Positions 60,936 through 63,504 of a stretch of 64,000 nucleotides of DNA are shown piece by piece. Under the pieces are notes generated by a model that saw only the letters and a list, made by a program, of their open reading frames with translations, did not search any database and was not told where the DNA came from. Origin of the DNA: Chryseobacterium jejuense (lineage in GTDB: Bacteria > Bacteroidota > Bacteroidia > Flavobacteriales > Weeksellaceae); contig NZ_JAGIPR010000001.1 of the NCBI RefSeq assembly GCF_017877355.1, forward strand, positions 558,001 to 622,000, in the 5' to 3' direction. The first letter of the stretch is position 1. Each line of letters opens with the position of its first letter. Both the position numbers and the translations under genes were made by a program.

Positions 60936-60957
60936 TAATTGTTATATAATTAAAGGA

Positions 60958-60987
60958 AAGACCCGCATATTCTGCGGGTCTTTTTAT
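60958..60987 (+). terminator. Terminator after proline dehydrogenase
   Basis: AAAGACCCGCATATTCTGCG followed by GGTCTTTTTATTT is a 9-bp GC-rich stem. Confidence 0.88.
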
Positions 60988-61116: not shown

Positions 61117-61147
61117 TTGCTGATTTAATTTTTAATTTCTATATTTG
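61117..61147 (+). promoter_or_regulatory. Promoter of a short transcription unit
   Basis: TTG (61117-61119) is followed after 20 bp by TATATTTG (61140-61147), as good as any promoter in the window. Nothing but a 34-codon ORF and a terminator lies downstream on this strand. Confidence 0.65.
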
Positions 61148-61170
61148 ATAAGACTATAAAAAACTAATGC

Positions 61171-61275
61171 ATGAAAAAAAATCATCTGCCACGGTTCTAC
61201 TTTAATGTGACAGAATTCTCTTGCTCTGGAAGAGACTATATCCTCAGAATTCACCTAAATTTTAAAAATAAATAA
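61171..61275 (+). CDS. Possible 34-residue small protein or small-RNA transcript
   Basis: ATG 61171 to TAA 61273-61275 gives 34 residues beginning MKKNHLPRFYF and ending RIHLNFKNK, with a single Cys (FSCSG). It is basic and has no signal peptide or GG leader that I recognise. It sits 23 bp after a consensus promoter and is followed by a terminator at 61312-61344, so the unit would be about 190 nt. The function could be a leader peptide or small secreted peptide, or the RNA itself may matter and the ORF be incidental. No gene follows on this strand, which argues against an attenuator. Confidence 0.4.
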   Translation: MKKNHLPRFYFNVTEFSCSGRDYILRIHLNFKNK

Positions 61276-61311
61276 AGCAAATAGCTTTAGTTTTCTTCTT
61301 CAAATATTTTT

Positions 61312-61344
61312 TAGCCTGGCCACTTTCCTTGGTCAGGTTTTTTA
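61312..61344 (+). terminator. Terminator of the short transcription unit
   Basis: CCTGGCCA pairs with TGGTCAGG (one G-T), followed by TTTTTTATT. Confidence 0.7.
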
Positions 61345-61393: not shown

Positions 61394-61653
61394 AGCGTCT
61401 TTAAAAATATGTCATTATACTATAAAATTTTTGTTTCAAAAAGATTCTCATTTGCAGTTTCATAGGGCGAATAATTTATTATTCTCTCACAACTCCAGAA
61501 GATTTTCTCAGATTTTGTACCTGCATAATTTGTGAAATCAGCGTGAGAAAATATAAAGAAAATAATTTTAACACTTTATTTCAGTAAGGAAAAGTATAGA
61601 CTTTATGCTTAAATAAGCTGTATGGCTATGCAGCCGCTTAGAAAGAATCAATG
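61394..61653. repeat. Tandem non-coding element, copy A
   Basis: It begins AGCGTCTTTAAAAATATG and ends GAAAGAATCAATGA, and aligns to copy B at a constant offset of 276 bp with essentially no gaps (checked at CTGCATAATTT, 61521 and 61797, and TTTATTTCAG, 61575 and 61851). Over one 80-bp stretch I count about 80 percent identity. No ORF of usable size runs through it. Confidence 0.8.
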
Positions 61654-61669
61654 AAATTGATTCCACCTT

Positions 61670-61929
61670 AGCATCCTTAAAATATGCGTAATTATTTATA
61701 AAATCTTTGCGTTAAAAAAATTCTCAGCTACGATTTTTCATAGAAATTAGGTCAATATTTTCTCAAAAATTCAGGAGATTTACACGGATTTTGGATCTGC
61801 ATAATTTGCGAAATCAGTGTGAGAAGATGTTAAAAAAATAATTCTGATCCTTTATTTCAGCAAGGAAAAGGGGAGACTTTACAGTTGAATAAGCTATTGG
61901 GATATGTGCCCGCTAAGAAAAAATAATGA
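61670..61929. repeat. Tandem non-coding element, copy B
   Basis: The partner of copy A, starting AGCATCCTTAAAATATG and ending AAAAAATAATGA. Words such as CTGCATAATTTGCGAAATCA and ATTTACACGGATTTTGG resemble a dispersed Bacteroidetes repeat family (from memory). The gap 61930-62054 after it has no recognisable feature. Confidence 0.8.
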
Positions 61930-62054: not shown

Positions 62055-62591
62055 CTAAGGTTCAAAACTTTCGAATTTTCCATTTTCATAGAACAAAACA
62101 ATGCGTTTTATTTTATTAGTCTGATTTCCAGTAACTTGACTTAATATTTCTTCAGGTGAAGTTTCTAATCGCTGAGAATCCGATATTTTTTCTGAGGCTT
62201 TATCCTGGGATGGTATAACCGATTCTCCAGAAGACGCCAGAGGAAGCTCTTTCTCTGTTTCATCCACTCCGAATTCATCATCTTCGTTTATCATGGTAAA
62301 AAGATCGGGTAGAGGTGTCGTTCTTATCTGATCCTCTTCAGGCTGTTCTTCCTGAATTTTTGTTTCCGGTAATTCTGACTTTAGCATTTCACCTTCACCG
62401 GTAACCAGCCAATCCCAAAGAAGTTCGGGGAATCGGGATTTTATTTTTATGATAAACTCCAGTGACGGTTTATTTCTTCCGGATGTAATATGCGAAATGG
62501 AGGAACGCTGTACATCAATCTCATCTGCAAATTCAGATGGGGTAAGTCGGGAGTACTCTATAACTTTTGAAATTCTTTCGTTTAAACTCAT
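62055..62591 (-). CDS. XRE-type helix-turn-helix regulator
   Basis: 178 residues. Residues about 2-60 form an HTH_3-like domain (LNERISKVIEYSRLTPSEFADEI, then VQRSSISHITSGRNKPSLEFIIKI). The middle (about 70-150) is acidic, Pro/Glu/Ser-rich and probably disordered (LPETKIQEEQPEEDQIRTT). The last 20 residues form a conserved-looking block (KIKRIVLFYENGKFESFEP) whose role I do not know. There is no phage-type protease or sensor domain. The promoter -7 box overlaps the dyad at 62613-62624. It is flanked by about 1 kb of non-coding DNA on each side, and likely binds the dyads, by position. Confidence 0.85.
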   Translation of the reverse strand: MSLNERISKVIEYSRLTPSEFADEIDVQRSSISHITSGRNKPSLEFIIKIKSRFPELLWDWLVTGEGEMLKSELPETKIQEEQPEEDQIRTTPLPDLFTMINEDDEFGVDETEKELPLASSGESVIPSQDKASEKISDSQRLETSPEEILSQVTGNQTNKIKRIVLFYENGKFESFEP

Positions 62592-62612: not shown

Positions 62613-62639
62613 TTACAAATGTAACTCATTAAATTTACA
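62613..62639 (-). promoter_or_regulatory. Promoter of the XRE gene, -7 inside dyad site 1
   Basis: On the minus strand TACATTTG (62616-62623) is the -7 box, about 25 bp before the ATG. A -33 TTTG lies 20 bp further upstream (near 62644-62647). The dyad TTACAAATGTAA (62613-62624) covers the -7 box, so a bound protein would block the promoter. Confidence 0.65.
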
Positions 62640-62745
62640 AAAGCAAAATACAAATGTAAATAATTGAAACTTTTATCAATATACAAATGTAACATGATTA
62701 TAATGTGTTATTATATAAGTATTTATATATAAATTACAAATGTAC
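62613..62745. promoter_or_regulatory. Cluster of four TTACAAATGTAA dyads
   Basis: Sites at 62613-62624 (TTACAAATGTAA, exact), 62648-62659 (ATACAAATGTAA), 62681-62692 (ATACAAATGTAA) and 62734-62745 (TTACAAATGTAC), all in the same orientation, with start-to-start spacings of 35, 33 and 53 bp. The half-sites TACA/TGTA flank a central AA. Confidence 0.75.
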
Positions 62746-62829
62746 TTTATGATTATATATATTAAATTGATTCAATAGTAGAATTCAATAATGGGTTAAT
62801 ATTTATGGTAAATGGCCTTTAAAAATAGA

Positions 62830-62841
62830 TTATAAATGTAA
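62830..62841. promoter_or_regulatory. Dyad variant TTATAAATGTAA
   Basis: One base differs from the exact dyad, same orientation as the four sites to its left. Confidence 0.45.
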
Positions 62842-63153
62842 ATTTTGACTGTTAAAAAACCATTTTAGATGAGTTATTTTTCATCTTTAGTTATTTACAA
62901 TATTAATCTCTAGATATATTTCAAAATAGACCATTAAATCTCTAAAATATAGGATATATCGGCTTATAATGATGATTATAATCAATATACATAAGTAAAT
63001 TACTCTTGTAAATATTCAATTTCCAGTAATTTTTACATTATTTACGACTATATATCTTCTGTTGAATAAGATTAATTTTCAGTTAAGTTTTAAAGCTCTT
63101 TGAAATATCAATTAGAATTCAATATCTGCCATTTCTTGAAGTTTTTCTTTGCT

Positions 63154-63165
63154 TTACATTTGTAT
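63154..63165. promoter_or_regulatory. Dyad TTACATTTGTAT, reverse orientation
   Basis: It contains TACATTTG on the plus strand, with a TTG 16 bp upstream (63136-63138), so it is also a possible plus-strand promoter. Confidence 0.5.
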
Positions 63166-63429
63166 AAGCATATAAACAACCAAGTTTTCCACAATTTATT
63201 TGTTTAAAAAATATATGCTCATTTGGGCTAAAACAGGTATTTATTCACTTCAAGTATTCTTACAAATAGTATTTAAATGAATTTTGTAACTAACTGAATA
63301 GTAATTAATTAAATGTATAGTATTAAATTATTCGCAATCCACAATTTTATCAACAGACATTTTGTCAATAGCAACTGTTTAACAATGTTACTCATGTTAA
63401 TCCATTAACAACGAGTAAAATTCTTATTT

Positions 63430-63441
63430 TAACATTTGTAA
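63430..63441. promoter_or_regulatory. Dyad TAACATTTGTAA
   Basis: The core ACATTTGTAA is exact and one outer base differs. Confidence 0.5.
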
Positions 63442-63492
63442 ATTGCATTTTGTTTACAAAAATTCTGTCAATTTTTTCTTTTTTTCTGCTAT

Positions 63493-63504
63493 TTACAAAT
63501 GTTA
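63493..63504. promoter_or_regulatory. Dyad TTACAAATGTTA upstream of the carboxypeptidase promoter
   Basis: It lies directly upstream of the -33 TTG at 63512-63514. Confidence 0.5.

Follow-up and report, generated by a model that had tools for sequence, protein, structure and literature searches.

A candidate small RNA gene in Chryseobacterium that may derive from the 3' UTR of a lost T9SS-cargo gene

Introduction

The question raised by this locus is whether a transcription unit of about 190 nt, standing by itself between two genes of Chryseobacterium jejuense, specifies a small protein, a small RNA or nothing of use to the cell. The window, i.e. the whole stretch of DNA analysed, is 64,000 nt long and covers positions 558,001 to 622,000 of contig NZ_JAGIPR010000001.1. 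An initial annotation of the unit had described it as an orphan, with a promoter, a 34-codon ORF and a terminator, and had proposed either a small-protein gene or a small RNA. We conclude, with a probability of about 0.70, that it is a small regulatory RNA gene which would have originated in the 3' UTR of a lost protein gene and become stand-alone when the coding sequence disappeared. This estimate was lowered from 0.72 because 17 of the genomes without the conserved 3' part of the unit are absent from the tree described below.

Results

Parts of the unit and its neighbours

All parts of the unit are on the plus strand. A TTG at position -33 (61117–61119) is followed, after a spacer of 20 nt, by a -7 box TATATTTG (61140–61147) of the Bacteroidota type TAnnTTTG. 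The 34-codon ORF (61171–61275), which we judge not to be coding, has its ATG 23 bp past the box. Within it is a hairpin, CTGCCAC...GTGACAG (61186–61213), that is clade-specific and weakly supported; it is retained in most of 12 close relatives, and in their consensus fold only 1 of 36 pairs has changed on both sides. A second hairpin, TAAAGC-loop-GCTTTA (61273–61289), leads into a conserved core of 24 nt, AGTTTTCTTCTTCAAATATTTTTT (61289–61312), unpaired except for its first A, and then into an intrinsic terminator (61313–61343) with a stem at 61313–61339 and a T run. The second hairpin, the core and the terminator are referred to here as the module. Transcription would start some 6–7 nt past the -7 box and give an RNA of about 190 nt (61153–61342).

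The upstream neighbour is a proline dehydrogenase gene (PF01619; 59766–60935, plus strand), to which a terminator-like site at 60955–60985 belongs. The downstream neighbour is a gene for an HTH_3 protein (62055–62591, minus strand), which is convergent with the unit and 0.7 kb away. On the plus strand no sizeable frame follows until a peptidase M14 match about 2.2 kb downstream, and only frames of less than 55 aa are listed in between. The initial annotation was therefore correct about the parts of the unit, all of which are present, and about a plus strand clear for more than 2 kb. It had also argued against an attenuator leader, and this holds, since the next downstream gene is convergent and no co-directional gene lies within about 2.2 kb.

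Two direct repeats of 228 nt (61421–61648 and 61697–61924), 74% alike and spaced by 276, account for most of the 0.7 kb that separates the module from the HTH gene; several close relatives also have 0.1–1.0 kb there. On the other side of the HTH gene, upstream of it, is a 0.9-kb intergenic region (62620–63500) that is very AT-rich and in which, by eye, TTACAAATGTAA-like words recur. These words are perhaps operator sites for the HTH protein.

From the window sequence alone, the parts of the unit are not beyond chance. Over the 5.5 kb scanned there were 26 sigma70-like sites (26.5 in shuffles) and five terminators (2.6 ± 1.9 in shuffles). Folded as a whole, the 198-nt unit has a z of -1.44, with 17 of 200 shuffles equally stable. 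The module alone, which folds as a hairpin, 23 unpaired nt and the terminator, has a z of -3.27, with 0 of 200 shuffles equally stable. No Rfam family matched in the window at the gathering score; at a relaxed E-value the best matches overlapping the module were below gathering (CyaR, 20.2 bits against 47; L20_leader, 18 against 58.7). Since the parts are near chance in the window, the case for the unit rests on comparison between species, and it is this comparison of sequences that makes the unit real.

Distribution of the module

A collection with one genome per species was searched for an exact 22-nt piece of the module. This word was found in 73 stretches, 58 of them in Chryseobacterium or Weeksellaceae records and each of these adjoining a proline dehydrogenase or HTH gene; the other 15, in other records and without these neighbours, were taken as chance. 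Comparison of 59 genomes by blastn showed two conserved blocks on either side of a hypervariable middle, one made up of the promoter and the initial 30 nt, the other of the final 90 nt. A covariance model of the last block was built from 35 sequences, 34 of which came from the exact-word loci, so that the species supplying rows match by construction. Of the 173 Chryseobacterium genomes, 112 contain the module at E<=1e-6, with one such copy in each (114 genomes at E<=0.01), and it was found in only one of the 33 genera of the family (296 family genomes searched). Conservation of the RNA, for which the initial annotation had suggested a covariance search, was thus borne out, with both sequence and fold kept in Chryseobacterium. 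The terminator stem covaries, with four pairs changed on both sides and 98.5% of helix cells paired; no covariation was found in the stem of the first hairpin in the module alignment.

The HTH gene is beside the module in 111 of the 112 loci and proline dehydrogenase in 109, the missing neighbours being explained by contig ends or lying beyond an insertion (G003). Most relatives have 4–12 nt from the end of the HTH gene to the module. In the clade of the window this distance is 0.1–1.0 kb and the module is unchanged. A reading of the module as the 3' UTR of the HTH gene, or as a bidirectional terminator, was considered and is disfavoured by its being unchanged where the HTH gene has moved away.

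There are 61 module-less genomes; the loci of 44 of them were inspected, and the remaining 17 are absent from the tree. When the filters of the model were relaxed and 40 of the 61, including these 17, were searched again, nothing came up at E<=1e-3 and five weak matches at 0.001–0.005. Two of the genomes that are off the tree, G139 and G026, encode an EamA protein with 89% identity to that of crown members (the crown clade is defined below). They are probably crown members themselves by this protein, in which case module losses in the crown are undercounted.

The promoter and the module flank a T9SS-cargo gene in relatives

In 29 genomes the DNA from promoter to module is a gene for a T9SS-secreted protein of about 339 aa, the stop of which overlaps the module (in one of the 29, G112, the gene appears in two pieces). 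The stop codon is within the module hairpin, the letters of which read Lys-Gln-stop in 24 of the 28 gene-bearing rows of the tree. The L061 protein starts MKK(T)LL.., judged by eye to be signal-peptide-like, and has a type A T9SS sorting domain at its C-terminus (PF18962, 49.3 bits against a cut-off of 27; TIGR04183, 54.6 against 23). The mRNA of this gene would run to the terminator of the module in these genomes.

The coding sequence is gone in 81 of the 112 module genomes, that of the window included, and the promoter and module remain as a unit of roughly 115–340 nt; the -7 box precedes the module by 51–274 nt in 58 crown genomes that lack the gene. The promoter of the window, its 5' UTR and its ATGAAAA resemble those of the T9SS gene in relatives, which suggests that the start codon of the 34-codon ORF is the relic start of that gene. 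The stretch at 61148–61177 (..ATAAAAAACTAATGCATGAAAA..) would be its relic 5' UTR and start codon, in line with the gene's 5' UTR and ATGAAAAAA start in relatives. The unit is thus stand-alone here, as had been claimed, but it is not simply an orphan, because relatives still have a gene to whose promoter and 3' end it corresponds.

Other genomes show further states of the locus. Eight have the T9SS gene and no module was found in them; in five of these (G018, G165, G172, G010 and G147) a short 3' UTR leads, by eye, to an ordinary terminator just before the HTH gene. In G003 (L169, G003:C2:610500-624000) the gene is split by an insertion of about 8 kb and its C-terminus is still on the module; the letters adjoining the module there resemble, by eye, a resolvase gene. 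By eye, G016 has a seemingly decayed remnant of the sorting domain and G004 has the last codons alone, with 51 nt from box to module; tblastn at E<=1e-3 found no T9SS match in the relic middles of these two genomes. In G012 (L174 / L262) the T9SS gene has a terminator of its own, and a separate promoter and module lie about 315 nt downstream. Relatives of G012 keep either the gene with its own terminator or the promoter-module unit, as if after a tandem duplication.

Gain and loss on the tree

A tree of 149 genomes was made with FastTree from proline dehydrogenase and the HTH protein, and it rests on these two neighbouring genes. Its rows comprise 81 with the module only, 28 with gene and module, eight with the gene only and 32 with neither. 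A crown clade of 78 species has 58, 19, none and one, respectively. Outside the crown there are 23 with the module only, nine with gene and module, eight with the gene only and 31 with neither, so that the module is often absent or degraded there (31 of 71 rows with neither; for example G113, G146, G069 and G089). Parsimony in the crown requires at least five changes of the gene state (eight losses if the gene was never regained) and a single change of the module state, and does not by itself give the direction of change. We infer that the gene came first because start, stop and promoter are shared and because stages of decay are seen. The order of events would then be an ordinary gene with a short 3' UTR, acquisition of the module, and repeated loss of the coding sequence.

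The core and the promoter are conserved

Among the 77 crown species with the module, the core has one change over its 24 sites. The stem of the module hairpin has seven changes over 12 sites, and most sites in the middle of the unit have 10–27 changes each. For comparison, the crown mean is 13.8 changes per four-fold site (147 sites) and 1.09 per second codon position (565 sites). Two gene-less clades of 26 and 17 species have no change at all in the core; 24 four-fold sites resampled in the same clades (20,000 draws) gave means of about 80 and 55 and minima of 28 and 21, and the 22 nt directly upstream of the core took 100 and 82 changes. The core is exact in 89 of the 112 module genomes and inexact in 23; exactness is therefore not imposed by the model, which found inexact cores, though it leans towards exact ones. 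In the crown 72 of 77 cores are exact, and four of the five exceptions are in genomes that still bear the gene.

The putative promoter is also conserved. The TTG at -33 is nearly unchanged, with 1–2 changes per site in 77 species against 10–25 at many adjoining sites. The same is true of the -7 box, in which the letters T, A, T, A, T, T, T and G have 0, 0, 6, 1, 0, 0, 0 and 0 changes; a match to TAnnTTTG was present in all 77 crown loci in the stretch searched, and the loci were aligned on it, so that the zeros at the six fixed letters arise by construction. The conserved promoter, terminator and unpaired core are best explained, to judge from the sequences compared, as belonging to a regulatory RNA.

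These data bear on the possibility that the module is only the strong intrinsic terminator between the convergent genes, kept to end transcripts of proline dehydrogenase, the T9SS gene or the HTH gene. The covarying stem, and an HTH gene ending 4–12 nt away in most relatives, are what such a terminator would lead one to expect. However, termination should have no need of an invariant 24-nt sequence upstream of the stem, proline dehydrogenase has its own terminator-like site, and several module-less genomes have, by eye, ordinary terminators at this place. Additionally, the module stays unchanged in the clade of the window although the HTH gene is 0.1–1.0 kb off, and the promoter is conserved too. 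We consider this explanation unlikely.

Search for targets of the core

If the unit is a small RNA gene, RNA polymerase would transcribe it from what was the promoter of the old mRNA, and the hairpins would protect the RNA. Acting in trans, the unpaired core UUUUCUUCUUCAAAUAUU may pair with mRNAs at A/G-rich sites of the GAAGAAGAAAA type. These sites possibly span start codons, and the pairing could block translation or alter mRNA stability without Hfq. The variable middle would be a relic spacer. A search for Hfq in G000 gave no match, the control having matched in five of 14 known genomes. To our knowledge, Bacteroides also lacks Hfq.

Perfect complements of 14 nt of the core were sought in 10 genomes. 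Ten were the module itself; of the 18 others, 16 are well inside frames of at least 80 aa, two (L332 and L343) are in none, and none is at a start. A longer complement of 20 nt, AAAAATATTTGAAGAAGAAAA (L332, L350, L351), is present twice in G138 and once in G005. Two of the three places, one in each genome, are within a reading frame of 207–208 aa, and the match in this frame is a probable chance event. Two half-core patterns before ATG were counted in eight genomes and gave 148 against 103 and 72 against 32 in a reversed control, with an excess in seven of the eight genomes both times. We put this excess down to Glu/Lys coding bias. Two of the recurrent half-core sites resemble, by eye, the beginnings of the rpsI and rimO coding sequences.

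An EamA transporter gene (PF00892) has a start region, AUGAAGAAGAAAAAU, that pairs with the core at about -16 kcal/mol. The site ATGAAGAAG is present in 35 of 37 module-bearing rows against seven of 12 module-less rows (49 of 53 rows scored), a comparison that is confounded by relatedness. One module-bearing row, G074, was scored at the wrong start, and of the four unscored rows (G126, G027, G094 and G007) the module-less G027 and G094 and the module-bearing G007 visibly carry the site. The EamA start region AUGAAGAAGAAAAAU (L443-L472, L473-L492) is nearly invariant in the crown, at synonymous sites too, and is common in module-less genomes.

No convincing mRNA target came out of the searches for complements and start sites. 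This would suit an RNA ligand, the pyrimidine-rich core of which titrates an RNA-binding protein, for example an RRM protein of the RbpB type, in place of regulating by base-pairing. The core is indeed an unpaired pyrimidine-rich tract flanked by two hairpins, and RbpB is described as binding sRNAs in Bacteroides (PMC11697453). A protein site should, however, rarely need 24 invariant letters, and we regard such a role as unlikely.

The 34-codon ORF

The other half of the initial proposal was that the ORF, beginning MKKNHLPRFYF, is translated and functional. An ATG-started frame does exist 23 nt past the -7 box, and the 5' UTR is partly conserved, but the frame is not kept. In both sister species, G138 and G005, the MKK frame ends at codon 10, and in other module-only crown species the first ATG frame gives unrelated peptides of 1–57 aa or there is no ATG within 60 nt. 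The body of the ORF lies in the fast-changing part of the unit. None of the other genomes among the 12 close relatives compared (window included) has the 34-codon peptide, G074 keeping a partly similar frame of 26 aa, and the peptide matched nothing in Pfam or NCBIfam. Its start codon is accounted for as the relic start of the lost T9SS gene. The small-protein reading is largely refuted and we give it very little credence; it is the small-RNA half of the proposal that is upheld, by conservation.

The unit does resemble a gene remnant, but the idea that it is a dead relic, consisting of the promoter and 3' UTR of the deleted gene before they have eroded, is hardly tenable, being refuted by the absence of changes in the core of the two gene-less clades, against about 80 and 55 expected from neutral-like sites, unless the mutation rate of this stretch is near zero.

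Discussion

We regard the unit as a 3' UTR-derived sRNA by origin because the module forms the 3' end of the T9SS gene in 29 genomes. In these genomes the mRNA of the gene would share the terminator of the module, and past the stop codon it is not the terminator alone that is conserved. A review of sRNAs derived from 3' ends describes conserved seeds after the stop codons of parental mRNAs (PMC9438474). The gammaproteobacterial examples CpxQ, SdhX, MicL and DapZ likewise share the terminator of the coding mRNA and are conserved just after the stop, as described there (PMC9438474). In contrast with that type, 81 genomes here have lost the parental coding sequence, the promoter of the old mRNA would drive the unit, and Hfq has no match in G000. 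The main text of the review contains neither 'pseudogene' nor 'lost' (PMC9438474).

Within the same phylum, Bacteroidota, GibS and FopS of Bacteroides thetaiotaomicron also have a conserved single-stranded seed and a Rho-independent terminator, and FopS-14 is a 3' UTR-derived member of its family, as we propose here (PMC7366714, PMC11697453). FopS is likened to the present RNA by description only: the FopS family has multiple copies and its seed is at the 5' end, whereas there is one copy per genome here and the proposed seed is between two hairpins. Rfp18 of Flavobacterium psychrophilum, from the same class of bacteria, is a post-transcriptional regulator conserved in its genus (PMC9723704). 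This likeness too is by description only, since Rfp18 is found in a different genus, pairs through its third stem-loop and targets metalloproteases (PMC9723704).

Among the matches listed from the open-licence literature there was no sRNA left behind by loss of the parental coding sequence and no paper on the present RNA, which is weak evidence of absence, and none was an sRNA study in Chryseobacterium. What appears to be new is the origin of an sRNA through loss of the coding sequence. Such an origin has a parallel in Xist, where a protein gene became a pseudogene and parts of it were retained as a noncoding RNA gene; Xist is a mammalian long noncoding RNA and there is no likeness beyond such an origin.

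A more general proposal can be made only tentatively, and we think it more doubtful than the reading of the unit itself. Bacterial sRNA genes may arise when a coding sequence is deleted. In this genus, selection would have retained the promoter and the 3' UTR RNA of a secreted-protein gene whose protein was given up several times independently, the 3' UTR RNA being the more important product of the transcript, and the core may silence mRNAs over MKKK-type start regions (AUGAAGAAGAAA) without Hfq.

At one locus in one genus we find an ordinary gene, a gene with a conserved 3' UTR module, a decaying gene and the module alone. This series shows how a stand-alone sRNA gene could arise, and it suggests that a cell may gain more from the RNA of a 3' UTR than from the protein that accompanies it. 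An annotation pipeline would probably place nothing at this locus or predict a small ORF that is spurious. For Chryseobacterium, the analysis offers a highly conserved sRNA candidate.
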